NCBI RefSeq assembly: GCF_015711645.1
Contig: NZ_JABTEX010000007.1
Location: 1-64,000 of the forward strand
DNA length: 64,000 nt
Source: Planomonospora sp. ID82291
GTDB lineage: Bacteria; Actinomycetota; Actinomycetes; Streptosporangiales; Streptosporangiaceae
Reading direction: 5' to 3'
Part shown: positions 4,725 through 35,480 of the stretch, one piece after another
How positions within the stretch are numbered: the stretch's first letter is position 1
How the letters are laid out: every line of letters starts with the position of its first letter
Program-made: the position numbers and the translations under genes
The notes under the pieces: generated by a model
What the model was told of the DNA's origin: nothing
Seen by the model: the letters and a program-made list of their open reading frames with translations, nothing else
Databases searched by the model: none

Positions 4725-4725
4725 G

Positions 4726-7060: not shown

Positions 7061-7061
7061 C

Positions 7062-10028: not shown

Positions 10029-10171
10029 GGCGGGACGGCGCCGTGCCCCTCCGCCCCGGTACGGCCTCCCCGGCGGGTCTCCTGCCGAGACCTCCGGCGC
10101 AGACCTCCGGTAGAGACCTCCCCGCATGACCGACTCCCCCGGCCGGAACCCGGCAGCCAAGGAGATTTGAG

Positions 10172-12818: not shown

Positions 12819-12854
12819 CACCGCCTCTCGCAGGGAATCCGGAGGAATCCGTAC

Positions 12855-13319
12855 GTGACCACCATCAGCGGCGCCGCCACCACCGGCGCCGCCGCCACCA
12901 CCGCGACCGGCGCGACCACCGCGACCGGCGCGTCGAGCGGCGGCAACCGGCTCGACAAGGACACGTTCCTGAAGCTCCTGGTGGCCCAGATGCGCTACCA
13001 GGACCCGAGCAACCCCACCGACACCTCCGCGTTCATGTCGCAGACCGCGCAGTTCACCGAGGTGGAGCGGATGGAGGAGCTCGTCAAGCAGCAGGGCGAA
13101 CTGCTGGCGGCCCAGCTGCGCCTGTCGGCCAGCGGCCTGGTCGGCAAGACCGTCGGCTACACCGGACCAGACGGCACGGACGCCGTCGGTGTGGTCACCT
13201 CAGCCTCCTTCGGCAGCGCCCCGACCCTGCGGGTCGGGAACACGGACGTACCGCTGTCCTCGGTCAAGGAAGTCACCAGCGCCGTCCCGGGCGGCACCGA
13301 ATCCACCGAAGGAAAGTGA
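12855..13319 (+). CDS. flgD: Flagellar hook-cap scaffold FlgD
   Basis: 154 aa. After a Thr/Ala/Gly leader comes the FlgD N-terminal block LDKDTFLKLLVAQMRYQDP, then SQTAQFTEVERMEEL, followed by a short C-terminal beta region. It caps the growing hook. It lacks the larger FlgD-Ig/Tudor C-terminal part of enteric FlgD, as in many Gram-positives. GTG 12855 has GGAGGA at 12,841. One base separates it from flgE. Confidence 0.93.
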   Translation: MTTISGAATTGAAATTATGATTATGASSGGNRLDKDTFLKLLVAQMRYQDPSNPTDTSAFMSQTAQFTEVERMEELVKQQGELLAAQLRLSASGLVGKTVGYTGPDGTDAVGVVTSASFGSAPTLRVGNTDVPLSSVKEVTSAVPGGTESTEGK

Positions 13320-13320
13320 C

Positions 13321-14160: not shown

Positions 14161-14192
14161 GCGCTCCCCGCCCTCGGGGCGGGCCCGCCGTG

Positions 14193-14232
14193 AAGGTCCC
14201 GGGACGCGGAAACGACCGCGCCCCGGGACCTT
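14193..14232 (+). terminator. Intrinsic terminator after flgE
   Basis: AAGGTCCCGGG (14193-14203) pairs with CCCGGGACCTT (14222-14232). Internal CGCGG/CCGCG extends the stem around an AAACGA loop, followed by TCG. Confidence 0.75.
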
Positions 14233-14278
14233 TCGCGTTCGAGCGGCCACGTGGACCTGTGGCGACGGTCAGGAGTTC

Positions 14279-14707
14279 TCACGGCCCCGGGTCGGCGATC
14301 TCGATGACGTGCAGCGGATCGTCCAAAGCGCGGGACGGCTCCTGCCATTTGTCGTGGTCGAGGGTGAGGATGGGGCAGACCGACACGTTCGCGATGGCAG
14401 CGGTATGGGCGTCGAATGCGTCCAGCCCGGTCCTGGCGATGACATCGGCCAAGGCGACGGCCTGCTCGGAGCCCTGTAGCGGGGCCACCATGACGGAGTC
14501 CAGGAGCTCCAGGCCGGTCAGGAGGTCGGCGGCGTCCTCGGTATGGGTGTCGGCGTGGGCACCGGCCATGGCCAGCGCGGGGACGATGACGGGCCAGCCT
14601 TCGGCGTCATAGCCCTGGATGAGGCCGATGAGATCACTGTCGCCGCGGGCGATCTCGATCAGAACGCTCATGTCCAGGATCCGGGGCGTGGGAGTGTGGT
14701 CGCTCAT
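14279..14707 (-). CDS. PIN-domain ribonuclease toxin (VapC-like)
   Basis: 142 aa. The N-terminal strand ILDMSVLIEIARGD carries the first PIN aspartate. Later acidic residues (TGLDAFDAHTAAIA and LTLDHDKW) complete the expected metal site, so it probably cleaves RNA. The start ATG overlaps the antitoxin stop (ATGA), so the pair is co-translated. The pair is reversed between flgE and swrD and splits the flagellar series. The 3' end is duplicated as a remnant at 2316-2386. Confidence 0.82.
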   Translation of the reverse strand: MSDHTPTPRILDMSVLIEIARGDSDLIGLIQGYDAEGWPVIVPALAMAGAHADTHTEDAADLLTGLELLDSVMVAPLQGSEQAVALADVIARTGLDAFDAHTAAIANVSVCPILTLDHDKWQEPSRALDDPLHVIEIADPGP

Positions 14708-14943
14708 CCCGGCATCTGACTTTCGATGTGGGCCATCATGCGGGCGACCCGGTCGGGATCGGCATGAGCGGCCCTGGCCTTCAATGCGGCGCGGGCCCGG
14801 CGGTCACGCCGCGCCTTCTCGGCCAAAGCATCCGCGATCGCCGCAGAGACGGAGGTGGCCTTGCCTGCATCGACGAGGTCGTTGACGTATGCCTCAAGAT
14901 GCGGATCGATGGTGATGGTGATCCTGGACTTCTTCGCACTCAT
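14704..14943 (-). CDS. Ribbon-helix-helix antitoxin
   Basis: 79 aa. Residues 6-45 match an RHH fold: the beta strand RITITIDPHLEAYV, then helices with VSAAIADALAEKA. The basic C-terminal tail probably wraps the toxin. It should bind and neutralise the PIN toxin and repress its own promoter, which would lie in 14,944-14,975. Confidence 0.8.
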   Translation of the reverse strand: MSAKKSRITITIDPHLEAYVNDLVDAGKATSVSAAIADALAEKARRDRRARAALKARAAHADPDRVARMMAHIESQMPG

Positions 14944-15012
14944 ACTCGGATCATACTGATCCTTCCGTGTGGCGTCCCGCGCTGTCGAACAAGCGAGCCC
15001 GTAGAGCCCGGG

Positions 15013-15204
15013 TCAGATCGCACGGTCCTGATCTCGTTCGGCCAGCGCGGCGGCGAGGTAGGCAGGGTTCAGGTGGGGATTATGGCGGGCGGCGATGCGG
15101 GCGAAGAGCTGTGCGCGGGATCCGCGCTGTGACGAGACATCGGCCTGCTCGTTGCCGTCCTGTCCGGCGCCGGATTCCGCGCCGGGAGTGATGTCGGGGT
15201 GCAT
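15013..15204 (-). CDS. Small hypothetical protein, 63 aa (uncertain)
   Basis: The C-terminal half (AQLFARIAARHNPHLNPAYL) looks protein-like and codon-biased, but the ATG at 15204 lacks a clear ribosome-binding site. It may be a fragment of a larger gene. The surrounding 14,944-15,298 otherwise holds nothing I can identify except the promoter motif at its right end. Confidence 0.3.
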   Translation of the reverse strand: MHPDITPGAESGAGQDGNEQADVSSQRGSRAQLFARIAARHNPHLNPAYLAAALAERDQDRAI

Positions 15205-15298
15205 CCCTACGTCTTAGCAGCTCTCGCCGATCTCCGGAGCGTGATCGCAGGGGAACGCCGGGCGCCCGAAAGAAGGGACCTCGGTCCCGGTGGTTTCC

Positions 15299-15325
15299 TC
15301 AAGCGGCGCGGCGCACGGCCGATGG
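15299..15325 (+). promoter_or_regulatory. Candidate FliA-type promoter for swrD-mot-fliL
   Basis: TCAA (15299-15302), exactly 15 bases, GCCGATGG (15318-15325), 64 bp before the swrD GTG. This is the best match to the sigma-28 layout in the window. Confidence 0.6.
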
Positions 15326-15388
15326 AAGAGGTGTAACGCGGCCCGGGTACGGCCCGTCGCCCTCTGACGACTGCAAGGACGGACCTCG

Positions 15389-15679
15389 GTGATCCTTCTT
15401 ACGCGCCTCAACGGGCCGGAGTTCGCGCTGAACCCCGACCTGATCGAGCGAGCCGACCAGACCCCCGACACGGTGATCACCCTCGTGGACGGGACGAAGT
15501 ACATCATCGCCGAGTCCCTCAGCGAGTTCCTGGGACGGGTGCGCCGCTACCGCGCGGAGCTGATCGCCGACGCCGAGATCCTCGTCTCCTCGGGCACGCA
15601 CCGCCTTCCCGGCCCCGGCCCCGGTCCCGCCGACGCCGACCAGCAGAGGGTCGTGCGCCTCCACCGTCAGGAGCGCTGA
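15389..15679 (+). CDS. swrD: FlbD/SwrD-family flagellar protein
   Basis: 96 aa. It begins MILLTRLNGPEFALNPDLIE and has TPDTVITLVDGTKYI, the signature of the FlbD/SwrD family, which in Bacillus supports motor torque and precedes motA or fliL. Only the first 65 residues are conserved; the Pro/Gly tail is variable. GTG 15389 follows AAGGAC. Two bases separate it from motA. Confidence 0.85.
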   Translation: MILLTRLNGPEFALNPDLIERADQTPDTVITLVDGTKYIIAESLSEFLGRVRRYRAELIADAEILVSSGTHRLPGPGPGPADADQQRVVRLHRQER

Positions 15680-15681
15680 GC

Positions 15682-16458
15682 ATGGATCCGGCAACCCTGG
15701 CCGGCATCGGCATCGCGGTGGTCTCCATCTTCGTGATGATGATCCTCGAGGGCTCCAACCCGATGTCGATCATGCTGCTGGCCCCGTTGATCCTGGTCTT
15801 CGGCGGCACCTTCGGCGTGGCCATGGCGGGCGGCGTCCTGCGTGACACCACCGGCATCGTCGCCCAGCTGAAGCGCGCCTTCACCGCCAAGCCCGCGGCC
15901 AGCACCGACCTGGTGGACTCGATCGTCAAGCTCTCCGAGCGCGCCCGCCGCGAGGGCCTGCTGGCCCTGGAGGACGCGGTCAAGGAGGTCAAGGACCCGT
16001 TCCTGCGCCGCGGCCTGGAGCTGGCCATCGACGGCACCGACCCCGAGGAGCTCCGGGAGATCCTGGAGGCCGAGGTCGACGCCAAGCGCAAAGAGGACAA
16101 GTCGGGCTCGAAGATCTTCACCGACATGGGCGGCTACGCCCCCACGATCGGCATCATCGGCACCGTGGTCAGCCTGGTCCACGTGCTGGAGAACCTCAGC
16201 GAGCCCGAGAAGCTCGGCCACATGATCGGCGCCGCCTTCGTCGCCACCCTGTGGGGCGTGGCCAGCGCCAACGTGCTCTGGATCCCCATCGGCAACCGCC
16301 TCAAGCGGATCAGCGAGCTCGAATGCTCGCAGATGGAGCTGACCATCGAGGGCATCGCGAACATCCAGGCCGGCACCAACCCGCGCCTGGTCTCGCAGAA
16401 GCTGCGGAGCCTGCTCCCCCCGGGGGAGAGTAGCGCCCAGAAGGCGAAGGCCGCCTGA
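15682..16458 (+). CDS. motA: Flagellar motor stator MotA
   Basis: 258 aa, four transmembrane segments: two near the start (GIGIAVVSIFVMMILEG and IMLLAPLILVFGG) and two after residue 150 (YAPTIGIIGTVVSLVHVL and IGAAFVATLWGVASANVLW). The long cytoplasmic loop contains charged residues (SERARREGLLALEDA) that contact FliG. It works with MotB as an ion channel. The stop overlaps motB. Confidence 0.95.
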   Translation: MDPATLAGIGIAVVSIFVMMILEGSNPMSIMLLAPLILVFGGTFGVAMAGGVLRDTTGIVAQLKRAFTAKPAASTDLVDSIVKLSERARREGLLALEDAVKEVKDPFLRRGLELAIDGTDPEELREILEAEVDAKRKEDKSGSKIFTDMGGYAPTIGIIGTVVSLVHVLENLSEPEKLGHMIGAAFVATLWGVASANVLWIPIGNRLKRISELECSQMELTIEGIANIQAGTNPRLVSQKLRSLLPPGESSAQKAKAA

Positions 16459-17360
16459 TGAGCACCAAGGTCCACCGCCACAAGAAGCGCGGCGGGCACG
16501 AGGAGGAGGCCCACGACGGCGAGCGCTGGCTGGTCACCTACGCCGACATGCTCACCGTGCTCGTGGGCCTGTTCATCGTCATGTTCGCGATGAGCCAGGT
16601 CGACCAGACCAAGTTCAACGCGCTCAAGTCGAGCCTGTCGATCGCCTTCGGCCAGCCCGCCGTGACCTTCACCGCGCCGGGCAGCGCCGTGGCGGGCGAC
16701 GCCGGCGGCGGGGAGTCCGCCCCCCTGGACCTGTCGTCCGTGGTGGGCAAGGGCGCCGACGGCGAGGCCGAGCAGCAGGCCCGCGCGGCCATGGCCGCCC
16801 TCGACCGCGCCAAGGCCTCGGCCCGCGCGAAGAACGCGGCGGCGGAGGTCGAGAAGTTCGAGCGGATCAGGAAGAAGATCCAGGAGGCGCTGCGCGAGCA
16901 GAACGCCGAGGACGGCGTGCAGTTCCGCATCGACGAGCGCGGCCTGGTCGTGACCGTCGTCACCAGCTCCGTCGTGTTCGGCAACAACAGCGCCGAGCTG
17001 CTGCGCGACGGCCGGAAGATCGTCGACGCGATCGCGCCGGCGCTGCGCACCGAGAAGAACTCCGTCGAGGTCGACGGGCACACCAACTGGCTGCCGGTCA
17101 CGTCGGGGCCGTACCCGTCGAACTGGGAGCTGTCGACCGCGCGCGCCTCCACCGTGGTGCGCCGGCTGGTGGCCAGGGGGATCCCCGCCAAGCGGCTGAA
17201 CGCCTCCGGCTACGCCGAGCAGCGGCCCCTGTACCCCGACACCGACCCCCGGTCGGTGTCGCTGAACCGCCGGGTCGAGGTGGTCGTCCTGTCCGACCTC
17301 GACGCCGCGACCAAGGCCCTGCTGCCGTCGGCCGCGGGCCAGTCCGCCGCCACGAGCTGA
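16458..17360 (+). CDS. motB: Flagellar motor stator MotB
   Basis: 300 aa. A basic N-terminus precedes the single transmembrane helix WLVTYADMLTVLVGLFIVMF, with the ion-binding Asp at residue 30. A plug/linker with coiled-coil character follows. The C-terminal OmpA-like peptidoglycan-binding domain has VDGHTNWLPV and NWELSTARASTVVRRL. The second half of the motif (GYAEQRPLYP) is intact. Confidence 0.95.
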   Translation: MSTKVHRHKKRGGHEEEAHDGERWLVTYADMLTVLVGLFIVMFAMSQVDQTKFNALKSSLSIAFGQPAVTFTAPGSAVAGDAGGGESAPLDLSSVVGKGADGEAEQQARAAMAALDRAKASARAKNAAAEVEKFERIRKKIQEALREQNAEDGVQFRIDERGLVVTVVTSSVVFGNNSAELLRDGRKIVDAIAPALRTEKNSVEVDGHTNWLPVTSGPYPSNWELSTARASTVVRRLVARGIPAKRLNASGYAEQRPLYPDTDPRSVSLNRRVEVVVLSDLDAATKALLPSAAGQSAATS

Positions 17361-17391
17361 CCGACCAGAGAACATCCGGGAGACGAACACG

Positions 17392-17856
17392 ATGGCCACC
17401 GCGAAGCTGAAGGCCGCGCCGAGCGCCGAGGAGGCGACGGGCGGCGGCGCGAAGAAACCGAAGAAGAAGATCCTCGTCATCGCCGGAGCCGTGCTGCTGC
17501 TCCTCGCCGCCGCCGCCGCGGCCTACTTCCTGCTGTTCGCGGGGGGCGGGGAGGCGGAGGAGCCCGCGCCGGAGCCCGGCGCCGTGGCCACCCTCGACGC
17601 CATCACGATCAACCTCTCCGACGGGCACTTCCTGAAGCTGAAGCTGGCCCTGCAGGCCACGGCCGAGGTCGCCGAGGCGCCCGACGGCAGCAAGGCCCTG
17701 GACCTGGCCATCGACCAGTTCAGCAACAAGCCGGTCGACGAGCTCTCCTCGGACAAGGCGCGCAACCTGGCCAAGCAGGAGCTGCTGGAGAAGATCGAGA
17801 AGGCCTACGAGGGAGAGATCATGGACATCTACTTCACCGAGTTCGTCATGCAGTAG
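17392..17856 (+). CDS. fliL: Flagellar basal-body associated protein FliL
   Basis: 154 aa with a charged cytoplasmic N-terminus, one transmembrane helix (about 27-49) and an extracytoplasmic FliL domain (VATLDAITINLSDGHFLKLK, ending ELLEKIEKAYEGEIMDIYFTE). FliL sits around the stator and aids torque. GGAGACG precedes ATG 17392. About 100 bp later a new promoter motif starts fliM. Confidence 0.92.
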   Translation: MATAKLKAAPSAEEATGGGAKKPKKKILVIAGAVLLLLAAAAAAYFLLFAGGGEAEEPAPEPGAVATLDAITINLSDGHFLKLKLALQATAEVAEAPDGSKALDLAIDQFSNKPVDELSSDKARNLAKQELLEKIEKAYEGEIMDIYFTEFVMQ

Positions 17857-17957
17857 GCGCCGGCCGTACGACGCGCGCACCGGCGGGGGCGCACCGCAGA
17901 CCCCCGCCGCGGAGACGGGACCCTCGACAGGAGGTGAACCCGCTTTCCGGCATTTCC

Positions 17958-17984
17958 TCATATCGGATGGATAACGGCCGATCG
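17958..17984 (+). promoter_or_regulatory. Candidate FliA-type promoter for fliM-flhB
   Basis: TCAT (17958-17961), 15 bases, GCCGATCG (17977-17984), only eight bases before GTG 17993. A transcript from here would be nearly leaderless. Confidence 0.45.
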
Positions 17985-17992
17985 GGGATCAC

Positions 17993-18952
17993 GTGAGTCA
18001 GTCGCAGCCTTCGGCATCAACGCCCCGCCTGCTCGGCCGGATGTCCCGCCGGGCGAAGACCTCCGAGCCGCAGCCCTATGACTTCCGGCGTCCCATCAAG
18101 CTCTCCCGCGAGCACGTCCGCACGCTGCAGATCGCCTACGAGACGTTCGCCCGCCAGTACACGACCCTGCTCACGTCGAGCCTGCGCGTCGTGTCCCAGG
18201 TGTCGCTGGTCTCCATCCAGCAGCTCACCTACGACGAGTACGTCTCGGCGCTGGCCACCCCGACCATCGTCACCACCGTCGACCTGGAGCCGCTGCCCGG
18301 CACCGCGATCATGGAGTTCTCGCTGGGCGTCGCGATGGCCAGCATCGACCACCTGCTCGGCGGTCCCGGCGGCGCCCAGGTGGAGCGCCCGCTGACCGAC
18401 ATGGAGACGCCGCTCCTGCGCGACCTGCTCACCCGGGTCCTGGAGGAGATGCACTACGCGTTCGAGTCGATCACCGAGATCCGCCCCAAGCTCGGCGTCA
18501 TCGACTACAACCCGCAGTTCGTGCAGGCCTGCGCCCCCGCCGACGCGGTCATCGTGGCCTCCTTCGACATGCGGGTGGGCAGCGAGGAGTGCCTGGCCAC
18601 GATCTGCATGCCGTTCGCCTCGATCTTCCCCAAGCTCCAGGGCAACGACAACGACATCACGCTCAGCTCGGGCCAGCGCGCCGCCCGCGAGGAGGCGCAC
18701 CGCAACATGGCCGCCGCGCTGGGCACCACGCCCATCGACGTGGCGGTCCGCTTCGAGGCGGTACGGCTCCGCCCCGACCAGATCATCGGCCTGGAGCCGG
18801 GTGACGTCGTGCCGCTCGGCCACCCCGTGACGGCGCCGCTGTCGGTGACGGCCGCGGACATCACCTTCGCCCACGCCGTGCCCGGCAGCCAGGGCCCGCG
18901 CCTGGCCTGCCTCGTCGTGCCCACGCCGCAGAACGAAACGGAAGCCCACTGA
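17993..18952 (+). CDS. fliM: Flagellar motor switch protein FliM
   Basis: 319 aa. The middle CheC-like domain is clear ([16 protein letters not shown], then [19 protein letters not shown]). The C-terminal SpoA domain follows with [16 protein letters not shown]. The first 20 residues ([20 protein letters not shown]) show no LSQxEIDALL-type CheY-binding motif. It forms the C ring with FliG and FliN. The stop overlaps fliN (ATG at 18952). Confidence 0.93.
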
Positions 18953-19680
18953 TGACCACCACGATCACCGTCGCCCCCCGCGTGGAGCTCGGCATGGCCG
19001 CGGCCGAGGCCACGCTGCCCCTGCTGCCCACCGGCGGCACCCTGGAGGTCGGCACCCCCGTCTTCACCGTGCCGCAGGACCTGCCCGCCGGCCTGGCCGT
19101 GTGCGCCCGCTTCTCCGGCGTCACCCAGGGCGAGGTCGCGGTCGTCGTCGGCCAGGACCTGGTCGACGCCCTGCGCCAGAGCCCGCTCGGCGAGCTGGAC
19201 CTGACCAAGGCCGTCCAGCCCGCCCTGGAGGCGGCGGCCCGCAAGCTGGGGCCCGTCGTCCTGGAGCCGGCGCTGGCCACCGAGCCCGAGGTGGGCCTGG
19301 GCGCGCTCGCCAACCGCGGCGAGTCGGTCTTCGTGCCGCTGCTGGAGGACGGCGTCGTGCGGGCCGTGCTCGCCCTGGTGGCGGTCTCCTGGCCGACCCC
19401 GGCGGCCGCCCGCTCCACGGGCAAGGCCAGGGCCGGCTTCGACCTGCTGCACGACGTCGAGATGAACGTCACCGCCGAGCTCGGCCGTACCCGGATGACC
19501 GTCCGCGAGCTGCTCTCGCTCGCGCCCGGCGCGGTGGTCGAACTCGACCGCGCCGCGGGCAGCCCGGTCGACCTGCTGGTCAACGGCCGCCTGATCGCGC
19601 GGGGCGAGGTCGTCGTGATCGACGAGAACTTCGGCGTCCGCGTCACCGAGATCCTCCCGCCCGGCGGGGACCGGCAGTAG
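18952..19680 (+). CDS. fliN: Flagellar motor switch protein FliN (extended)
   Basis: 242 aa. The last 80 residues are the SpoA/FliN domain ([47 protein letters not shown]). The first 150 residues are an extra domain, so the protein resembles FliY-type architecture, although I do not see the CheC phosphatase motif clearly. Forms the bottom of the C ring and docks the export ATPase complex. Confidence 0.9.
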
Positions 19681-19735
19681 CCGCGTCCGCCGCCCGCCGC
19701 CCGCGACCGCCTCGACGGAGGAGCAGCATCCCGCA

Positions 19736-20173
19736 ATGTTCGAGACCGTTCTGAGAATCACGTTCTCGCTCCTGGTCGTCCTGCTCCTGGTGTGGGGGCT
19801 GTCGAAGGCGGCCCGCAAGCCGCTGGCCGGCCGGGGCGGGGGACTGCTCACCGTGGTCGCCCGCCAGCAGCTGACCCGCAACTCCTCCGTCGCGGTCGTC
19901 CGGGTGACCGACCGGGCCCTGGTGCTCGGCGTCACCGACGGCCAGGTGACCCTCCTGGCCGAGGCGGACCTGGAGGCCGTGGAGCGCTACGGAGAGCACT
20001 CCGGGCAGCGCATCCCCGTCTCCCTGCCGGCCGTTCTCCCGTCAGCCGACTCCTCTCCGGCTGATGCGGGAACGGCCGGGCAGGGTCCCGGCGCCCTGGC
20101 CGGATCGGCGCTCTCGCCCCGGACCTGGAAGACCGCCCTGGAAATCCTGCGCGAACGGACGGCTCGCAACTGA
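19736..20173 (+). CDS. fliO: Flagellar export-gate assembly protein FliO
   Basis: 145 aa. It has an N-terminal transmembrane helix (LRITFSLLVVLLLVWGLSKA) and a small cytoplasmic domain with VVARQQLTRNSSVAVVRV and LVLGVTDGQVTLL, matching FliO. It helps assemble the FliP pore. ATG 19736 has ACGGAGGAG upstream. The Pro/Ala/Gly-rich tail is variable. The stop overlaps fliP. Confidence 0.87.
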   Translation: MFETVLRITFSLLVVLLLVWGLSKAARKPLAGRGGGLLTVVARQQLTRNSSVAVVRVTDRALVLGVTDGQVTLLAEADLEAVERYGEHSGQRIPVSLPAVLPSADSSPADAGTAGQGPGALAGSALSPRTWKTALEILRERTARN

Positions 20174-21108
20174 TGAAGCGCATCCTCAGCCTGGCCCTGA
20201 CCGGCCTGGCCGTGGCGGGCACGCTCGTGCTCGGCGCGCCGGCGGCCTCCGCGGCCGCCCCGCCGGCACGGCCCGCCGCCACCGCCGTCACCACCGCAGT
20301 GCCCGCCGGTACGGCCACCGGTACGGCCGCCGCAGCGCCCGCCGGTACGGCCGCCGCGCTCGCCCCGCCGGCCTCCCTCGCCTCCCTCGCCTCGCCCACC
20401 CCGTCCGGCCCGTCCGGTCCCAAGGGCACGACCGGCCCCGGCAAGGACTCGGTGACGATCGACCTCAACGGCGTGGGCGGCAAGCCCAGCCAGTCGATCG
20501 TCCTGATGCTCGGCCTGACGGTGCTCTCCGTGGCCCCGGCGATCCTGCTGCTCTGCACCAGCTTCACCAAGATCTTCGTGGTGCTGAGCATCACCCGCAA
20601 CGCGCTGGGCCTGTCCAACGTCCCGCCGAACCAGGTGCTGGCCGGTCTGGCGATCTTCATCAGCCTGTTCATCATGGGCCCCGTCGCCTCGGACGTGAAC
20701 GACAAGGCGATCCAGCCCTACCTCAAGGGTGAGAAGAGCGTCTCCCAGGCCGTCGAGGCCGGCACCCCGGCGGTGCGGGAGTTCCTGACCGAGCACACCC
20801 GCAAGGACGACCTGGCGCTCTTCACCAAGATCGCCGACCAGCCGAAGCCGGCCAACGCCGCCGCGGTGCCGATGACCACGCTCATCCCGGCGTTCGTCCT
20901 GTCGGAGCTGCGGGCCGCGTTCATCATCGGGTTCGTCATCTACGTGCCGTTCCTCATCATCGATCTGGTCATCTCGGCCGCCCTGATGTCGATGGGCATG
21001 ATGATGCTCCCGCCGGTCACGGTGGCGATGCCCTTCAAACTCCTCCTCTTCGTGCTCGTCAACGGCTGGGGGCTCATCGTGACCTCCCTGGTCGGCAGTT
21101 ACCAGTAG
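20173..21108 (+). CDS. fliP: Flagellar export gate protein FliP
   Basis: 311 aa, longer than most FliP because of a cleavable-type signal plus an Ala/Pro/Thr linker (residues 1-95). The core has VLMLGLTVLSVAPAILLLCT, FTKIFVVLSITRNALG, the conserved LIPAFVLSELRAAF and IYVPFLIIDLVISAALMSMGM. Five FliP subunits form the gate with FliQ and FliR. ATG 20173 overlaps the fliO stop. Confidence 0.95.
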   Translation: MKRILSLALTGLAVAGTLVLGAPAASAAAPPARPAATAVTTAVPAGTATGTAAAAPAGTAAALAPPASLASLASPTPSGPSGPKGTTGPGKDSVTIDLNGVGGKPSQSIVLMLGLTVLSVAPAILLLCTSFTKIFVVLSITRNALGLSNVPPNQVLAGLAIFISLFIMGPVASDVNDKAIQPYLKGEKSVSQAVEAGTPAVREFLTEHTRKDDLALFTKIADQPKPANAAAVPMTTLIPAFVLSELRAAFIIGFVIYVPFLIIDLVISAALMSMGMMMLPPVTVAMPFKLLLFVLVNGWGLIVTSLVGSYQ

Positions 21109-21138
21109 CCCGGCTTCCAGGTAAGGACCTCCACGACC

Positions 21139-21414
21139 GTGACCGACACCCAGGTGCTGCACATCGGCACGCAGGCCATGATGCTCGCCACCAAGCTGGG
21201 CGCCCCGATCCTGGTGACCGCGCTGCTCATCGGTTTCGTGATCTCGCTCTTCCAGTCGGTGACCCAGATCCAGGAGGTCACCCTCTCCTTCGTGCCCAAG
21301 GCGGCCGGGGTGTGCGTGGCCCTCATCTTCAGCGGCAACTGGATGCTGCACGAGATGGTGGCGTTCACCACGCAGCTGTTCGACCAGGTCCCGCAGCTCA
21401 TCCACGGCGGCTGA
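21139..21414 (+). CDS. fliQ: Flagellar export gate protein FliQ
   Basis: 91 aa with two transmembrane helices (LGAPILVTALLIGFVISLFQ and AAGVCVALIFSGNWML) around the conserved SVTQIQEVTLSFVPK loop. GTG 21139 follows AAGGACC. It inserts between FliP subunits in the gate. fliR starts four bases after its stop. Confidence 0.95.
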   Translation: MTDTQVLHIGTQAMMLATKLGAPILVTALLIGFVISLFQSVTQIQEVTLSFVPKAAGVCVALIFSGNWMLHEMVAFTTQLFDQVPQLIHGG

Positions 21415-21418
21415 GCCC

Positions 21419-22183
21419 GTGGAGGGGATGCTGTCGCAGACCACGCTGGTCGCGCTGCTGCTGGCCTCGGTCCGCTCGGCCGCCTGGCTGCTGATCAGCC
21501 CGCCGTTCAACAACAAGGCGATCCCCGGGACGGTCAAGGCCCTGCTCTCCGTCGCGATCGCCCTGCCGATGGCCCCCGCGCTGGCCGCCCAGATCACCGA
21601 CATCTCCCCCGCCGCCATGCTGGTCGTCGCCGCCGAGCAGGCCGTCGTGGGCGTCGCCCTCGGCTTCCTGACCGCCATGGTCTTCGCCGCGGTCCAGGCC
21701 GCCGGCGACCTCCTCGACATCTTCGGCGGCTTCTCCCTGGCCACCGCCTTCGACCCGATGTCGATGTCGGCGAACTCGGTGTTCGGCAAGTTCTACGGCC
21801 TGCTCTGCACCACGCTGCTGCTGGTCAGCGGCGGCTACCAGTTCGTGCTGCTGGGCTTCACCCGGACCTACCGGCTGCTCCCGCTGGACGGCGCCCTGTC
21901 CCTGGAGACCCTCAGCGAGCTGGTCACCGGCGGCCTGGCCGACCTGTTCGTCTCCGCCCTGCAGATCGCCGGGCCGATCATCGCGGTGCTGTTCGTCGCC
22001 GACCTCGCGCTCGGCCTGCTCAGCAAGGCCGCTCCGGCCCTGAACGCCTTCTCCCTCGGATTCCCGGTGAAGATCTTCCTGACCCTGGCCCTGGCCGGCA
22101 TCGCCATCTCGGTGCTGCCCGGCGTGATCGACGGGCTGACCGACCGCGCGGTGCGCATGATGACGGGACTGGCGAACGGATGA
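21419..22183 (+). CDS. fliR: Flagellar export gate protein FliR
   Basis: 254 aa with about six transmembrane segments, including LVALLLASVRSAAWLLISPPF at the start and a conserved GFLTAMVFAAVQAAGDLLD segment. It completes the export pore with FliP and FliQ. The start is GTG 21419 and the stop overlaps flhB. Confidence 0.94.
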   Translation: MEGMLSQTTLVALLLASVRSAAWLLISPPFNNKAIPGTVKALLSVAIALPMAPALAAQITDISPAAMLVVAAEQAVVGVALGFLTAMVFAAVQAAGDLLDIFGGFSLATAFDPMSMSANSVFGKFYGLLCTTLLLVSGGYQFVLLGFTRTYRLLPLDGALSLETLSELVTGGLADLFVSALQIAGPIIAVLFVADLALGLLSKAAPALNAFSLGFPVKIFLTLALAGIAISVLPGVIDGLTDRAVRMMTGLANG

Positions 22184-23265
22184 GCGGCGGAGGCGGCGGC
22201 GAGAAGACCGAGCAGCCCACAGCGAAGAAGAAGCAGGACGCGCAGAAGGAAGGGCAGATCGCCCGGACGCCGGACTTCGCCGCGTGGGCGTCGATGCTGG
22301 CGGCGGGCGTGCTCATGCCGATGGTGCTGGAGGACGCGGTGGAGGCCGCCGAGGGCATCATGCTCCGGGTGGGCGAGGTCATCGAGAACCCCGACCCCGC
22401 GCTGGGGCTGAAGATCCTCATCTCCGGTCTGGGCGACGCCATGCTGGCCGTCGCGCCGCTCGCGGCCGCCACCGTGGTCGTCACCCTGGCCGCCGCGGCG
22501 GGCCAGGGCGGTCTGAAGCCGGCCAGCAAGCTGTTCAAGCCGCAGCTCAAGAGGCTCAACCCGCTGCAGGGCCTGAAGCGGATGTTCGGCGGGCAGGCGC
22601 TGTGGGAGAGCGTCAAGGCGCTGATGAAGACCGCCACGCTGACCGGCATCGCCTACATGGCCATCCGCGACCTGATCCCGGTCCTGCTGGCCTCCGGCTC
22701 CCTGCCGCTGGGCGTGCTGCTGTCCAGTGCCGGTGACGCGATCCTGTCGCTGATGCGCTGGGCGGGCGTCACCGGCCTGGCGCTGGCCGCCGCCGACTAC
22801 GCGATGGCGCGCCACCGCATCGGCAAGCAGCTGAAGATGACCAAGCAGGAGGTCAAGGAGGAGTACAAGCGCTCCGAGGGCGACCCGCACGTCAAGGGGC
22901 AGATCCGCGCCCGCCAGCAGGCGATGGCCCGCAACCGCATGATGGCCGACGTCCCCACGGCCGACGTGGTCCTGGTCAACCCCACCCACGTCGCGGTGGC
23001 GCTGCGCTACGACCCGTCCAAGGGCGCTCCCCGGGTGGTCGCCAAGGGCTCGGGCACCATCGCGGCGAAGATCCGCGAGATCGCCGCCGAGAACCGCATC
23101 CCGATGGTCCAGGACGTCCCCCTGGCCCGCGCGCTGCACTCCAGCTGCGACATCGGCCAGGAGATCCCCGCCGAGATGTACGGCGCCATCGCCAAGGTGC
23201 TGGCCTTCGTGATGACCCTCAAGGCCAAGGGCTCCGCCGCCGGCACCCACCGCCTCGCCGCCTGA
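22180..23265 (+). CDS. flhB: Flagellar export specificity switch FlhB
   Basis: 361 aa, four transmembrane segments, and the cytoplasmic autocleavage motif N267-P268-T269-H270 inside VLVNPTHVAVALRYD. The N-terminus GEKTEQPTAKKKQDAQKEGQI is the family signature. FlhB switches export from rod/hook to filament proteins when FliK signals. A stem-loop terminator follows. flhA, normally next, is not here. A degenerate copy of part of this gene lies at 26,924-27,018. Confidence 0.96.
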   Translation: MSGGGGGEKTEQPTAKKKQDAQKEGQIARTPDFAAWASMLAAGVLMPMVLEDAVEAAEGIMLRVGEVIENPDPALGLKILISGLGDAMLAVAPLAAATVVVTLAAAAGQGGLKPASKLFKPQLKRLNPLQGLKRMFGGQALWESVKALMKTATLTGIAYMAIRDLIPVLLASGSLPLGVLLSSAGDAILSLMRWAGVTGLALAAADYAMARHRIGKQLKMTKQEVKEEYKRSEGDPHVKGQIRARQQAMARNRMMADVPTADVVLVNPTHVAVALRYDPSKGAPRVVAKGSGTIAAKIREIAAENRIPMVQDVPLARALHSSCDIGQEIPAEMYGAIAKVLAFVMTLKAKGSAAGTHRLAA

Positions 23266-29596: not shown

Positions 29597-29834
29597 ATTT
29601 CGCCAATCTGCGGGCTGACCGGGACGGGATCGCCCTCACTCTCCCCGCCGCCCGGTGGGATGTCGGGGCGCTCCTGGCTGCCGCGGCAGCCGGTTCTCGG
29701 ATCCGAGGCACGGGAACGTTGTCCCATAAGTGAAGAAGATCCTATTTTGTAACTCTATGTGAACATCACACTACGTAATATATTTGACGTCCAGTTTGCG
29801 ATTTTCGTGACGGACAGTTAGTGTGACCGGGAAG

Positions 29835-29969
29835 CCGCAGGCAGGGGCATATGCCTGCGGCGTTCATCGGGTACGCGATGATCCGGGACGGCCTCAACGG
29901 CGCCTGACGGCGCACGTAGGAATTCGGCCGCCTAGCCGTTCCGGGGAGCCAATGGCGAGACCGAACCCA
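29835..29969 (+). ncRNA. Structured leader RNA, copy A
   Basis: A 93-nt block (29,877-29,969) recurs at 33,714-33,806 with one difference. Upstream, CCGCAGGCA (29835-29843) pairs with TGCCTGCGG (29852-29860); in copy B the equivalent helix is kept by compensatory changes. Within the block GCGCC/GGCGC and GCCGTT/AATGGC helices are possible, the latter covering ATG 29952. That ATG has GGGGAG upstream and opens a 53-codon frame ending at 30,113, next to the following gene. It does not match a riboswitch class I know. Confidence 0.6.
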
Positions 29970-30114
29970 AGTCCTCATCTGACGTCCTTCCGCCGAAGGC
30001 GTCCGGGTTCTTTCTTCGTCGTGGGAGTCCTCGCCATGCCCGCCTGCTCCGCGCCTCCGCCGTGCGCTCCGCTCTCCGCACCCGCCCTCCGGGCGATCGC
30101 CGGAGGTGCCTGAG

Positions 30115-30441
30115 ATGTACGCCAACGGCGCCCTCGCGCTCACCGGCGCCGGGATGGGCGTGGCCGGCACCGTCGCCCTCCCTCCTCTGCACGCCGACTC
30201 CTCGGCCGCCGACGCCGCCCTGTCCCCCGCCGTGGACGTGGCCCGCACCCTGCTGATGATCACCGGCGCGGGCTTCGGGCTCTTCCTGCTGGTGATGGCC
30301 GTCCTGCTGGCCGCCGGCGCCGTGCTGCGCGGCGTCGACGCGGCCCGCCGCGGGCGCGCCCTGCCGCGGGCCGACCGCCGCGCCCGCCACGCCGCCACCG
30401 GTGACGCGAGCCGGGCCCAGGTGGCGGAGCTGCTGCGATGA
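30115..30441 (+). CDS. Small membrane protein of exopolysaccharide module
   Basis: 108 aa from ATG 30115, with CGGAGG eight bases upstream. It has an N-terminal hydrophobic segment and one strong transmembrane helix (LLMITGAGFGLFLLVMAVLL, about 46-65), then a basic tail. The stop overlaps the glycosyltransferase start, so it is probably a partner subunit. No family is recognised. Confidence 0.6.
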   Translation: MYANGALALTGAGMGVAGTVALPPLHADSSAADAALSPAVDVARTLLMITGAGFGLFLLVMAVLLAAGAVLRGVDAARRGRALPRADRRARHAATGDASRAQVAELLR

Positions 30442-31673
30442 ACCCCCTGCTCTGGCTGAGCGCGGCGGTCATCGTGCTCGGCCTCGGCTACACCTGCGTG
30501 ATGTTCGCGCTGTCGCGGGGCGTGCGCCGCCCCGGGTCCGCCGGGCCCGCGCCGTTCTACGTCTTCCTGATGGCCTGCCTGGACGAGGAGAAGGTGCTCG
30601 CCGCCAGCCTGCAGCGGCTGCGCGGCCTGCCCGGCGACCTGGCGGTGCTGGTCGTCGACGACGCCTCCTCCGACGGCACCGCCGACATCGTCCGCGACGC
30701 CGCGGCCGAGGACGGCCGGATCTGGCTGCTGCAGCGCGCGCTGCCGAACGCCCGCCGCGGCAAGGGCGCGGCCCTCAACGCGGGCCTGGCCCACCTGCTG
30801 GAGTCCGGGCTGCTGGCCGGGCGCGACCCCGACCGGGTCGTCGTGTGCGTGCTCGACGCCGACGGGCGCCTGGATGCCAACGCCCTGGAGGAGGTCACGC
30901 CGTACTTCGCCGACCCCGGCACCGGCGCGGTCCAGATCGGCGTGCGGATGTACAACCGGCACACCGGCCTGCTGGCCCGGCTGCAGGACATGGAGTTCGT
31001 CGTCTACACCGACGTCTTCCAGAACGGCCGCCGCCACCTGGGCAGCGTCGGCCTCGGCGGCAACGGCCAGTTCATGCGGCTGAGCGCGCTCACCGCGCTG
31101 GGCGCCGACCCGTGGAGCGACTGCCTGACCGAGGACCTCGACCTCGGCGTGCGCCTGCTCGCCACCGGCCGGCAGAACCGGTTCTGCCACACCACCGCCG
31201 TGCACCAGCAGGCGGTCCTGTCGCCCAAGCGGCTGGTCCGGCAGCGCTCGCGCTGGTTCCAGGGCCACCTGCAGGCCGGCCGGCTGCTGCCGCTGGTCAT
31301 CCGCCGCACGCCGCTCGCCGCCGCACCGGACCTGGTCTACCACCTGCTCAGCCCGTGGTTCCTGCTGCTGACCTCGCTGCTGCCGCTGGCGTTCCTCGCC
31401 TCCGGCGCGGCCCTGGCGCTGGCCTCGCTGCAGGCCGGGCAGAGCGTCGTCTCCCCGGCCATGTTCGCCGCCTGGTACGCGCTCTCGTTCGGCGTCGGCC
31501 TGATCTACGGCTACGTGTACTGGCGCCGCGACCGCGAGCTGGGCCTGCTGCGCTCCCTGCTGCTGGGGCACGCGTTCGTGCTCTACGGCTACCAGTGGTT
31601 CGCCGCCGGATGGTGGGCGGTGGGACGCGCCGTCTCCGGCCGCCAGACCTGGCTCAAGACCGCCCGCACCTGA
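30438..31673 (+). CDS. Processive family-2 glycosyltransferase
   Basis: 411 aa. An N-terminal transmembrane helix precedes the GT-A domain with VVDDASSDGT, the metal-binding DAD of VLDADG, TED (LTEDLDLG) and QRSRW, the D,D,D,QxxRW set of processive synthases. Several C-terminal membrane helices follow. It would polymerise and extrude a polysaccharide at the inner membrane. There is no PilZ domain. The start overlaps the small membrane protein gene, and a secreted DUF2334 protein follows. Confidence 0.88.
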   Translation: MNPLLWLSAAVIVLGLGYTCVMFALSRGVRRPGSAGPAPFYVFLMACLDEEKVLAASLQRLRGLPGDLAVLVVDDASSDGTADIVRDAAAEDGRIWLLQRALPNARRGKGAALNAGLAHLLESGLLAGRDPDRVVVCVLDADGRLDANALEEVTPYFADPGTGAVQIGVRMYNRHTGLLARLQDMEFVVYTDVFQNGRRHLGSVGLGGNGQFMRLSALTALGADPWSDCLTEDLDLGVRLLATGRQNRFCHTTAVHQQAVLSPKRLVRQRSRWFQGHLQAGRLLPLVIRRTPLAAAPDLVYHLLSPWFLLLTSLLPLAFLASGAALALASLQAGQSVVSPAMFAAWYALSFGVGLIYGYVYWRRDRELGLLRSLLLGHAFVLYGYQWFAAGWWAVGRAVSGRQTWLKTART

Positions 31674-31682
31674 CGCGGGCCG

Positions 31683-31880
31683 CACCCGCGGCCGGCCATG
31701 CCCCGGCGCGGACCGCGCCCGCACCCGGCGCGTCCGCCCCGGACCGCACCGGACCGCGCCCGCACCCGGCGCGTCCGCCCCGGACCACCCGGCGCGTCCG
31801 CCCCGGACCGCATCGGACCACCCGGCCGCCGCCTCGCCCCGGGACTCCGGACCACCCGACCGCCGCCTCGCCCCGGGACT
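31683..31880 (+). repeat. Intergenic GC-rich tandem repeats
   Basis: About two and a half copies of a unit containing GCACCCGGCGCGTCCGCCCC, followed by two copies of a unit with CCGCCGCCTCGCCCCGGGAC. They fill the gap between the glycosyltransferase and DUF2334 genes and may reflect slippage. Confidence 0.7.
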
Positions 31881-31883
31881 GAC

Positions 31884-33479
31884 GTGACCGCCTCGCCCCC
31901 TTCCCCCCTCCGCCTCCGCGCGCTGGCCCTGAGCGTGCTGGCCGCGCTGACCGCCGCGCTGCTCCTGACCGCCGGCTCCGCCCCGCAGCCCGCGGCCACG
32001 GCGCCGACCGGGGCCTTCACCGGCGGCCTGTCCGGCACCGGCCGCTCCACGCTGGTGCTGTACGACACGACCGGCCGCTGGGCGCCCACCGGCGAGCTGT
32101 ACGCCACCCAGGCCGCCAACCTGGCCGGCCACTTCGGCACGTTCACCGCGCTGCCGGTGGCGTCCTACACCGCCGGCCTGATGGACGCCCACACCGCGGT
32201 GGTCTACGTCGGCTCCACCTACGACGAGCCGCTGCCGGAGGCGTTCCTGGCCGACGTGCGCGCCGCCGGCCGCCCGGTGATCTGGCTGAACAACAACATC
32301 TGGCAGCTGGCCGCGTCCACCCCCACCTTCGCCGCCGACTACGGCTGGGCGCCGTCCGCGTTCGGCCCGGGCACCGTCGACACGGTCGTCTACAAGGGCC
32401 GCGCCCTGGCCCGCGACACCGCCGACACCGCCGGCGTGATGGCCTACTCCGCCCTGGACGAGACCAGAGCCGAGGTCCTGGCCACCGCCGTGCGCACCGA
32501 CGGCGTCCGCCTGCCCTGGGCGGTGCGTTCGCGCAACCTGACCTACATCGGTGAGATGCCCTTCGCCTACACCGTGACGGCCGGTCGCTACCTGGCCTTC
32601 GCCGACCTGCTGTTCGACGCGCTCGCCCCGGAGACCCCCGAGCGCCACCGTGCCCTGCTCCGCCTGGAGGACATCGGCCCCAACGCCGACCCCGCCGCTC
32701 TCCTGGCGGTCGCCGCCGACCTGAGGAAGCGCGGGATCCCCTACTCCTTCGGCGTCTACACCCTGCACCGGGAGCCGGAGAAGGGCGTCGAGATCCGGCT
32801 GCGGGACCGGCCCGAGGTGGTCGCGGCGATCGAGTACATGCTCGCCAACGGCGGCACGATGATCATGCACGGCTACAGCCACCAGTACGGCGAGCGGGCC
32901 AACCCCTACAACGGCGCCAGCGGCGACGACTTCGAGTTCTACGCCACCCACGTCGACGAGGCGGACTACGTGGTCTACGACGGCCCCGTCCCCGGCGACT
33001 CCTTCGCCTGGGCGCAGGGCCGCCTGGACGCCGCCGCGGCGGAGTTCCGCGCCTGCGGCCTGCCGGTGCCGACCGTCTTCGAGTTCCCGCACTACGCCGG
33101 GTCGGCCGAGGACTACCGGGCGGTGCGCTCGCGCTTCGCCGCCCGCTACGAGCGCGGCCTGTACTTCGCCGGCACGCTGTCGGGCACCGCCGTGCGGTAC
33201 GACCACTCGGCCGGGCAGTTCTTCCCCTACGCCGTCACCGACGTCTACGGCTCCAAGGTGATCCCGGAGAACCTCGGCAACCTCATCCCCACCGGCTACA
33301 ACAACCACCCGTCGGTGCTCCCCGCCGACCTGGTCGAGGCCGCCGCGGCCAACCTCGTCGTGCGCGACGGCGTGGCGAGCTTCTTCTACCACCCCTACCT
33401 CGGCACCCGGCGGCTCGGCGAGATCATCGACGGGATCGAGGACCTGGGCTACACGTTCGTGCCCGCGAGCGCCGTGTAG
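31884..33479 (+). CDS. Secreted DUF2334 polysaccharide deacetylase-like protein, paralogue 1
   Basis: 531 aa from GTG 31884, which puts a signal peptide (ALALSVLAALTAALLLTAG) at the start; longer readings run into the repeats. DUF2334 signatures are present: ALLRLEDIGPNADP, IMHGYSHQY, VFEFPHYAGS and FFYHPYLG. DUF2334 is related to NodB-type deacetylases, so polymer trimming or modification outside the cell is inferred. Nearly identical over about 215 bp to paralogue 2. Confidence 0.82.
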   Translation: MTASPPSPLRLRALALSVLAALTAALLLTAGSAPQPAATAPTGAFTGGLSGTGRSTLVLYDTTGRWAPTGELYATQAANLAGHFGTFTALPVASYTAGLMDAHTAVVYVGSTYDEPLPEAFLADVRAAGRPVIWLNNNIWQLAASTPTFAADYGWAPSAFGPGTVDTVVYKGRALARDTADTAGVMAYSALDETRAEVLATAVRTDGVRLPWAVRSRNLTYIGEMPFAYTVTAGRYLAFADLLFDALAPETPERHRALLRLEDIGPNADPAALLAVAADLRKRGIPYSFGVYTLHREPEKGVEIRLRDRPEVVAAIEYMLANGGTMIMHGYSHQYGERANPYNGASGDDFEFYATHVDEADYVVYDGPVPGDSFAWAQGRLDAAAAEFRACGLPVPTVFEFPHYAGSAEDYRAVRSRFAARYERGLYFAGTLSGTAVRYDHSAGQFFPYAVTDVYGSKVIPENLGNLIPTGYNNHPSVLPADLVEAAAANLVVRDGVASFFYHPYLGTRRLGEIIDGIEDLGYTFVPASAV

Positions 33480-33671
33480 GCCGTACGGAAGACCGGGCGC
33501 GGGCCGTACGGCCCCGTCCCGCCGGGCGGAGCGCGGGCCGCAGGGCGACGGGCGGGCCGCAGGGCGGGGCGCGGCGGGCGTGCGGTGGCCGGAGGGCCCG
33601 TGTCGCGCTCCGCAGAGGAAGCGGTGATCGATTTGCCGCAGTGGTGACCGAAAGTTACTCTGAACGAGAAC

Positions 33672-33806
33672 CCGCAGGTAAGGGCATATACCGCGGTGAT
33701 TCACGGGGTAAGCGATGATCCGGGACGGCCTCAACGGCGCCTGACGGCGCACGGAGGAATTCGGCCGCCTAGCCGTTCCGGGGAGCCAATGGCGAGACCG
33801 AACCCA
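33672..33806 (+). ncRNA. Structured leader RNA, copy B
   Basis: CCGCAGGTA (33672-33680) pairs with TACC-GCGG (33688-33695), preserving the copy-A helix through GC-to-AT changes. The 93-nt block 33,714-33,806 matches copy A but for one base. ATG 33790 in the block is in frame with the DUF2334 gene, and its GGGGAG could initiate it. A GACGCC/GGCGTC hairpin (33,821-33,837) follows. Confidence 0.6.
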
Positions 33807-33866
33807 CACCCTGTCCTGCGACGCCCCGAGGGCGTCGATCTCGCTTCGTTGTGGGGGTCCCACCCT

Positions 33867-35480
33867 ATGCCCGCTCTCCTCCTCCGGCGCCGCGCCGCCG
33901 TGTCCGCGCTGACGGCGTTCCTGTCCGCCGTGCTGCTGGTCGCCACCGGTCTGGCGACCCCGACCGCGACCGCCTCGGCCTCCGCCGCGCCCGCGTCCGC
34001 GACCGCCCGGGCCACGGCCTTCACCGGCGGCCTGTCCGGCACCGGCCGCTCCACGCTCGTGCTGTACGACACGACCGGCCAGTGGGGCTGGCTGGGCGAG
34101 CTGTACGCCACCCAGACCGCCAACCTGGCCGGCCACTTCGGCACGTTCACCGCGCTGCCGGTGGCGTCCTACACCGCCGGCCTGATGGACGCCCACACCG
34201 CGGTGGTCTACGTCGGCTCCACCTACGACGAGCCGCTGCCGGAGGCGTTCCTGGCCGACGTGCGCGCCGCCGACCGCCCGGTGATCTGGCTGAACAACAA
34301 CATCTGGCAGCTCACCGCGTCCACCCCCACCTTCGCCGCCGACTACGGCTGGATGTGGTCGCAGTTCGACTTCAGCACCGTCGAGGGCGTCGTCTACAAG
34401 GGCAAGGACCTCTCGCGCGACGGCCGCAACGCCTCCGGCGTGATGGACTACGCCTCGGTCGACGAGACCAAGGCCAAGGTCCTGGCCGGCGCGGTGCGCG
34501 AGAACGGCACGCAGATCCCGTGGGCGATCCGCTCGGGCGCGCTGACCTACGTCGGCGAGATCCCCTTCGCCTACACCACCGCCTCCGACCGCTACCTGGT
34601 CTTCGCCGACCTGCTGTTCGACGCGCTCGCCCCGGAGACCAAGGAGCGCCACCGCGCCCTGCTCCGCCTGGAGGACATCGGCCCCAACGCCGACCCGGCC
34701 GAGCTGATGAAGATCGCCGTCGAGCTGAAGAAGCGGAGGATCCCCTACTCCTTCGGCGTCTACACCGTCTACAAGGAGCCGGGCAAGGCCGTCCGGCTCC
34801 GGCAGCGCCCCCTGGTGGTCGCGGCGATCAGGTACATGCTCGCCAACGGCGGCACGATGATCGCCCACGGCTACACCCACCAGTACACCGACGCCCCCAA
34901 CCCCTACAACGGCACCAGCGGCGACGACTTCGAGTTCTACACCGCGCACGTCGACGAGGAGAACTACGTCCGCTACGACGGCCCCGTGGCCGAGGACTCC
35001 CTCGCCTGGGCGACGGGCCGGATCGACAAGATGAAGGCGGAGTTCCGCGCCGCCCTGCTCCCGGTGCCGCAGTACTTCGAGTTCCCGCACTACGCCGGCT
35101 CCGCCGTGGACTACGAGGCCGTCCGCCGGGCCGGGTTCAAGGCCCGCTACGAGCGCAGCCTCTACTTCGCCGGCACGCTGTCGGGCACGGCCCCGCAGTA
35201 CGACCACATGGCCGGGCAGTTCTTCCCCTACGCCGTCACCGACGTCTACGGCTCCAAGGTGATCCCGGAGAACGTCGGCAACATCGAGCCGGAGTCGTTC
35301 AACAACCACCCGGTGGTCCTCCCGGCCGACCTGGTCAAGGCGGCCAAGGCCAACCTCGTCGTCCGCGACGGCGTGGCCAGCTTCTTCTACCACCCCTACC
35401 TCGGCACCAGGTGGCTGCTGGAGACCGTGGACGGCATCAAGAAGCTCGGCTACACCTTCGTGCCCGCGAGCGCCATGTGA
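33867..35480 (+). CDS. Secreted DUF2334 polysaccharide deacetylase-like protein, paralogue 2
   Basis: 537 aa from ATG 33867, giving a standard signal peptide (RRRAAVSALTAFLSAVLLVA). ATG 33790 would add 26 residues and lies in the leader. Signatures mirror paralogue 1: LRLEDIGPNADP, IAHGYTHQY, YFEFPHYAGS, FFYHPYLG. It has its own copy of the leader RNA, so it may be controlled in parallel with the glycosyltransferase. Confidence 0.84.
   Translation: MPALLLRRRAAVSALTAFLSAVLLVATGLATPTATASASAAPASATARATAFTGGLSGTGRSTLVLYDTTGQWGWLGELYATQTANLAGHFGTFTALPVASYTAGLMDAHTAVVYVGSTYDEPLPEAFLADVRAADRPVIWLNNNIWQLTASTPTFAADYGWMWSQFDFSTVEGVVYKGKDLSRDGRNASGVMDYASVDETKAKVLAGAVRENGTQIPWAIRSGALTYVGEIPFAYTTASDRYLVFADLLFDALAPETKERHRALLRLEDIGPNADPAELMKIAVELKKRRIPYSFGVYTVYKEPGKAVRLRQRPLVVAAIRYMLANGGTMIAHGYTHQYTDAPNPYNGTSGDDFEFYTAHVDEENYVRYDGPVAEDSLAWATGRIDKMKAEFRAALLPVPQYFEFPHYAGSAVDYEAVRRAGFKARYERSLYFAGTLSGTAPQYDHMAGQFFPYAVTDVYGSKVIPENVGNIEPESFNNHPVVLPADLVKAAKANLVVRDGVASFFYHPYLGTRWLLETVDGIKKLGYTFVPASAM

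Follow-up and report, generated by a model that had tools for sequence, protein, structure and literature searches.

The window studied here comprises the first 64,000 nucleotides (nt) of contig NZ_JABTEX010000007.1 from the actinomycete Planomonospora sp. ID82291 and contains two structured RNA leaders within one set of exopolysaccharide-type genes. Judged from their letters, both leaders are members of an already catalogued riboswitch family, c-di-GMP-II-GAG. We propose, at a probability of roughly two in three, that through them cyclic di-guanosine monophosphate (c-di-GMP) turns on both units of one surface-polysaccharide gene set. Unit 1 would combine a processive family 2 glycosyltransferase (GT2) synthase and its DUF2334 partner; unit 2 would be a second DUF2334 gene.

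Two c-di-GMP-II-GAG aptamers in one gene set

The stretches 29,877–29,969 and 33,714–33,806 agree in 92 of 93 positions, i.e., they differ only in T29917/G33754, and exact identity reaches two bases further to the left and none to the right. The initial annotation had noted this near-identical pair, which our comparison confirms, and had read it as a plausible new class of sensing RNA. Conservation and structure, which spoke for a new class, are indeed strong. In the Rfam 15 comparison, however, both copies scored above the gathering cut-off of RF03169 (c-di-GMP-II-GAG; 48.4 bits for copy 1 and 48.6 bits for copy 2, cut-off 40), and copies from relatives exceeded it as well. With E-values over the whole window of 1.7e-6 and 2e-6 these are not chance matches. 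The new-class reading is therefore refuted and retains next to no probability; the wider suggestion, a cyclic-dinucleotide-sensing RNA ahead of exopolysaccharide-type genes, is well supported by the sequence comparisons and probably right. Among 99 genomes searched, own included, 20 had the RNA over cut-off, and one of its P2 pairs and its pseudoknot vary with pairing kept, i.e., the window does not merely hold recent duplicates lacking covariation. The name c-di-GMP-II-GAG is also used for a model in PMC9943018.

Apart from their scores, the window copies share with this family the letters G69, A70 and G73, to which "GAG" presumably refers, as well as C37, the pseudoknot and the position in a 5' leader upstream of same-strand open reading frames (ORFs). 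They differ from it by a 27-nt loop insert, by C40 opposite A68, where the sample described below mostly has U40-A68, by an additional upstream hairpin and by occurring twice within one gene set. Canonical c-di-GMP-II (RF01786, structure 3Q3Z) is a related model which other genomes' GAG RNAs match too; in contrast, the window copies carry G69 with C37, and a search of the own genome with RF01786 (cut-off 53.5 bits) gave no match at E ≤ 0.001. At the same threshold the genome holds no third GAG copy, and RF01051 (c-di-GMP-I, cut-off 35 bits) had no match in it or in the four other GAG genomes of its taxonomic family.

We threaded the Rfam-derived structure through 11 leaders from six genomes. 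Of its cells, 95.5% were paired, compared with 28–41% in slid controls. The pseudoknot and helices P1 to P3 are present in both copies, and the pseudoknot CGCC/GGCG is invariant across the 11 leaders. Two-sided changes occurred in just 2 of 24 aptamer pairs; P1 has only about 4 base pairs, and the outermost P2 pair forms in three leaders. More variation was seen in a sample of 28 RNAs, i.e., the window's two and 26 from the 99-genome search (L019 and L022 left out). Here one P2 pair was G-C in 20 and A-U in eight RNAs, and a script read the pseudoknot as CGCC/GGCG in 13 and as CACC/GGTG in nine, the remainder being mixed or mis-picked. RNAalifold on the whole leader returned a fold contradicting the aptamer with covariation near zero and was replaced by the Rfam structure.

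Each aptamer is preceded by a further hairpin. The compensatory change described for this helix in the initial annotation, GGCA/TGCC versus GGTA/TACC, holds, since pairing is kept in both copies. Among the 11 leaders the variable pair is U-A in five, U-G in three, C-G in two and different in one; the hairpin is kept in Planomonospora and Planobispora but not clearly in Spirillospora. Scanning the whole own genome at up to two mismatches returned only the two leaders. We rejected the hairpin as a genome-wide regulatory site, as the three-mismatch count was 11 versus 13 in the control.

A start codon had been suggested as well, i.e., an AUG sequestered at the end of each repeat behind GGGGAG. 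This does not stand: AAUGGCGAGACCG forms the aptamer's conserved 3' strand, and GGGGAG belongs to the aptamer too. The AUG lies inside the aptamer, and just 5 of 11 leaders have it in frame with the AUG further downstream, so that we rejected it as a start or as an N-terminal extension; in one of these five (Pbsi_1) a stop follows after 10 codons. From the sequence, ATG 30,036 of a 25-residue ORF and ATG 33,867 of a DUF2334 gene are likelier starts.

Distribution and history of the riboswitch pair

An exact 21-mer scan matched Spirillospora albida, Planomonospora parontospora, P. venezuelensis, Planomonospora sp. ID67723 and Planobispora siamensis. Matches in Mesorhizobium and Hymenobacter (L033, L035) were set aside by eye as chance, their flanks lacking the aptamer. 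The glycosyltransferase protein of the window is closest to that of P. parontospora (94% identical). With the exception of S. albida, where a single riboswitch and a single DUF2334 gene were seen within the 19 kb read, these Planomonospora and Planobispora matches share the layout riboswitch, ORF, glycosyltransferase, DUF2334, riboswitch, DUF2334.

We surveyed 341 genomes of the taxonomic family, own included, counting the glycosyltransferase at E ≤ 1e-60. GAG was found in five, flagellin over cut-off in nine and the glycosyltransferase in 37, and the GAG genomes are exactly the five in which flagellin and glycosyltransferase occur together. Fisher tests of this co-distribution gave P = 3.4e-9 by genome and 1.2e-6 by genus, with phylogeny beyond the genus uncorrected. 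Even a lax search of the four genomes with flagellin but no such glycosyltransferase gave nothing over the GAG cut-off (best E 0.45); the 32 with the glycosyltransferase but no flagellin over cut-off had none under filters stricter than that search. In the seven of these 32 genomes whose loci were read (L098–L104), a divergent DUF2334 gene stands beside the glycosyltransferase, and no GAG core was found within about 1.5 kb.

The genera Planomonospora, Planobispora and Spirillospora form motile spores. A flagellar gene cluster lies upstream of the polymer genes in the window; the nine of its proteins scanned with Pfam matched rod protein, FliF, FliG, FliI-type ATPase, MotA, FliM, FliP, FliR and FlhB. 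A gene for a methyl-accepting chemotaxis protein follows at 38.9 kb. Of the 18 GGDEF domains in the genome, 7 lie on the 192-kb contig whose first 64 kb are the window. Two of the three flagellin matches lie there as well, which makes this contig an island of motility and c-di-GMP genes. A 2023 survey of actinobacterial flagella describes Streptosporangiales without flagella and finds zoospore formers richest in GGDEF genes; the word riboswitch does not occur in its main text (PMC10746217).

The history of the two copies can be read from their identities. Aptamers are 0.88–0.99 identical within a genome and 0.76–0.93 between genomes at the same position (0.98–0.99 for the window and P. parontospora). 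Hairpins, by comparison, are 0.87–1.00 identical at the same position versus 0.68–0.77 within a genome, and platforms 0.49–0.89 versus 0.47–0.58, mostly a position-wise likeness. Aptamer cores hence look homogenised between the copies, with hairpins and platforms position-specific. The near-identity of the aptamers probably reflects gene conversion, strong constraint or both; conversion of the core is the likely cause, and constraint alone is a less likely one. A recent duplication without function would account for the 92/93 identity, but the two-copy layout with its position-specific hairpins and platforms is conserved in P. parontospora, P. venezuelensis, sp. ID67723 and Planobispora siamensis, and that reading is therefore refuted. 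The pair is probably older than the split of Planomonospora and Planobispora.

Ligand and direction of switching

We mapped the numbering of 3Q3Z onto the leaders, taking U37 and A69 as the canonical letters. Both window copies have C37 and G69 in their place. A C37 candidate was found in 33 of 33 G69 RNAs, which are not independent, and three A69 RNAs (L008, L020, L021) have U37; L020, L021 and L022 lie outside the pattern used for the G69 tally. Automatic tallies of 37-69 gave 23 C-G, 3 U-A and 2 U-G in the 28-RNA set and 30 C-G, 2 A-G, 1 U-A and 1 U-G in a larger one, and they disagree because a different 5' candidate is picked where several fit. One RNA (L025) has A73. With one search pattern, no canonical c-di-GMP-II example for comparison was found in viral contigs. 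The ligand contacts given for 3Q3Z include U37, A69, A70 and G73 (PMC7288161).

On sequence grounds c-di-GMP is most likely the ligand. It is the first candidate because the riboswitch tracks flagellin and synthase within the taxonomic family and stands before bldD elsewhere in the class. In a context set of 26 loci (L016 and L019, from the own family, not included; eight scanned with Pfam), two have BldD equivalogs behind the GAG RNA (NF050110 295 and 287 bits, cut-off 250). BldD is described as a c-di-GMP-bound regulator (PMC9530166). In these two loci (L013 and L015, in genomes G069 and G078) the GAG candidates lie directly before bldD, a possible feedback loop. Signal-peptide-like secreted proteins, assigned by eye, follow in 16 loci, an AsnC-like regulator in five (one of them scanned) and folP in one, behind a below-cut-off match; one locus has no downstream ORF and one is unclear. 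The AsnC-like genes are perhaps not the target, because the ORF starts 198–385 nt away in four loci; in the fifth it lies within a longer frame. SpaA-domain proteins follow GAG in two of the eight scanned loci. This resembles canonical c-di-GMP-II in Paraclostridium, where tandem copies are reported before a COG4932 surface-anchor gene (PMC9481103). In each of two genomes of one genus (G073:C64 and G096:C42), some 2.5 kb contain three GAG riboswitches, and all four downstream ORFs read there encode secreted, surface-type proteins.

Several results weigh against our proposal. Copy 1 falls below the family cut-off in P. venezuelensis (32.4 bits) and Planomonospora sp. ID67723 (29.8). Outside the taxonomic family, flagellin occurs in 4 of the 17 genomes with GAG and in 4 of the 22 others (P 0.71); as the tie vanishes there, it is a trait of this lineage and not of the RNA family. 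GGDEF domains are present in 22 of 22 genomes with GAG over cut-off, but also in the 18 others tested, and thus in all 40, so their presence does not discriminate as a ligand test. Their number does differ outside the family, with a median of 16 in GAG genomes (n = 17) versus 7 (n = 18, including G091; P 0.004, phylogeny uncorrected). Finally, by sequence, the GAG letters alter nucleotides lining the ligand in the c-di-GMP-II pocket, and Weinberg is reported to have suggested in 2017 a different ligand for c-di-GMP-II variants of this kind.

These last points favour a GAG riboswitch that binds another cyclic dinucleotide or a related signal, as does the finding that 10 of 23 genomes searched (the 22 with GAG over cut-off and G091) also carry c-di-GMP-I riboswitches. 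Our literature search found no settled ligand for the GAG variant. Positions 37 and 69, however, change jointly, like a compensated pair, and both the bldD leaders and the GGDEF domains in every GAG genome speak for c-di-GMP. Loss of the GHxxGD aspartate marks enzymes that make cyclic GMP-AMP (cGAMP). In the own genome 16 of the 18 GGDEF domains could be parsed (L058 and L061 could not), with GHxxGD in 15 and SHxxGD in one; the aspartate is kept in all 16, and none therefore bears the mark of a cGAMP maker. Another ligand is hence improbable. Were the signal nevertheless a different one, motile-spore actinomycetes would couple swimming and surface polymer through an unrecognised second messenger, which we consider slightly less probable still.

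If c-di-GMP is the ligand, its binding would close helix P1 and so keep the P1 3' strand from pairing further downstream. In platform 2, TGTGGGGG holds the likely ribosome-binding site and is able to pair with CCCACA of this strand; control of copy 2 would then be translational. In platform 1, CCGGGTTC is able to pair with GAACCC, and the withheld partner would be a segment otherwise extending a terminator-like hairpin, i.e., control would be transcriptional. Both partners are conserved: CCGGGT(T/C)C follows the hairpin in five copy-1 leaders (Planomonospora, Planobispora and the window), GTGGGGG occurs in five of five copy-2 leaders and TGTGGGGG in four, and the partner at the ribosome site reads GTGGG in all five and TGTGGG in four. 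From this conservation we predict ON switches in both platforms. c-di-GMP usually raises polymer genes, and on both grounds the ON direction appears somewhat more likely than not.

The computed folds lend this prediction no support, and those of the whole leader lean the other way. The alternative pairing appears in the minimum-energy platform fold of three of five copy-2 and two of five copy-1 leaders. Between free and bound-like states of the whole leader, accessibility of the ribosome site fell in 9 of 11 leaders and rose in two, both of copy 2; in platform-only folds it rose in two and fell in three of five copy-2 leaders, and changed by at most 0.07 in copy-1-type leaders. No promoter was found in a promoter scan, and the count of terminator-like sites, 2, was close to that in shuffled sequence (mean 1.0). 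An OFF switch, by which c-di-GMP represses the polymer genes, would agree with the whole-leader folds and with the three platform-only folds. But these two-state folds lack pseudoknot energies, with the ribosome site chosen by pattern, and repression fits neither the usual effect of c-di-GMP nor the GTGGG partner over the ribosome site kept in every copy-2 leader. We hence regard OFF switching as unlikely, although less so than another ligand.

With ON switching, high c-di-GMP would turn on both units, and settling flagellated spores would begin polymer synthesis. In this flagellated soil actinomycete and its close kin the surface polymer is thus most likely controlled by c-di-GMP in step with motility; together with the bldD leaders, the co-distribution in the family points to a possible way for actinomycetes with motile spores to link settling to surface polymer. 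The locus offers a clean test case, as near-identical aptamers face different expression platforms in one polymer gene set, the more so as searches of the own genome gave no match to c-di-GMP-I or to canonical c-di-GMP-II.

Gene set and surroundings

The genes are ordered copy 1, 25-residue ORF, 108-residue ORF, GT2, DUF2334 A, copy 2, DUF2334 B (Table 1). Profile matches confirm the glycosyltransferase and DUF2334 genes expected downstream.

Table 1. Positions of the leaders, genes and flagellar cluster in the window
Feature	Positions	Strand	Basis
Flagellar gene cluster	4374..23265	+	Pfam, 9 proteins scanned
Upstream hairpin, leader 1 (10-base-pair stem, GGCA/TGCC type)	29834..29861	+	Sequence, relatives
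c-di-GMP-II-GAG aptamer, copy 1	29862..29974	+	RF03169
Presumed expression platform 1 (hairpin, CCGGGTTC, pyrimidine-rich stretch)	29975..30035	+	Sequence, relatives
25-residue ORF, putatively coding	30036..30113	+	Sequence; GGGAG upstream
108-residue ORF	30115..30441	+	Beside the glycosyltransferase gene in riboswitch-bearing relatives too
GT2 glycosyltransferase, processive type	30438..31673	+	Profile matches, motif (QRSRW)
DUF2334 protein A	31884..33479	+	PF10096, 164.9 bits; probable start
Upstream hairpin, leader 2 (GGTA/TACC type, bulged A)	33672..33696	+	Sequence, relatives
c-di-GMP-II-GAG aptamer, copy 2	33699..33812	+	RF03169
Presumed expression platform 2 (hairpin, TGTGGGGG)	33813..33866	+	Sequence, relatives
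DUF2334 protein B (signal-peptide-like N-terminus, ThuA-like and CE4-deacetylase-like fold)	33867..35480	+	PF10096, 159.6 bits

The 25-residue ORF ends just before the 108-residue ORF and opens with ATGCCCGC, as does the DUF2334 gene behind copy 2. The 108-residue ORF had no Pfam or NCBIfam match. For the GT2 protein, whose motif fits QxxRW, which we take to be the signature of processive synthases, the best NCBIfam model was that for XrtP-associated glycosyltransferases, at 298 bits against a cut-off of 520; PgaC_IcaA (57 bits, cut-off 422) and EpsU were weaker, and all remained below cut-off. The frame of DUF2334 A is open from 31,698, and GTG 31,884 is its probable start, judged from the sequence. 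Between GT2 and DUF2334 A, GC-rich near-repeats lie at 31,700–31,870, which would be translated if ATG 31,698 were the start.

For DUF2334 B, Pfam-type and structure matches were computed from 33,879–35,480. Its AlphaFold model is of moderate quality (pLDDT 63.9, pTM 0.59). By E-value, the top two PDB matches are GMP synthases with a template modelling (TM) score of 0.23 or less, followed by carbohydrate esterase family 4 (CE4) deacetylases, e.g., 4m1b (TMt 0.67), and one ThuA-like protein. A processive-type GT2 together with a CE4-like deacetylase fold recalls Pga/Ica-type polymer operons, but the GT2 lies far under the PgaC_IcaA cut-off and scores better with the XrtP-associated model, and the set has DUF2334 in place of a classical CE4 protein. 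None of the papers searched joins DUF2334 with exopolysaccharide.

Antisense to the entire gene set, a 1916-residue frame is open on the minus strand (29,766–35,516), probably a by-product of high GC content. An IS605-type TnpB gene follows soon after flhB (24,017–25,225, minus strand); opposite to it, RF02743 (Sernc389, a Saccharopolyspora antisense RNA) matches 24,444–25,038 on the plus strand with 182 bits.

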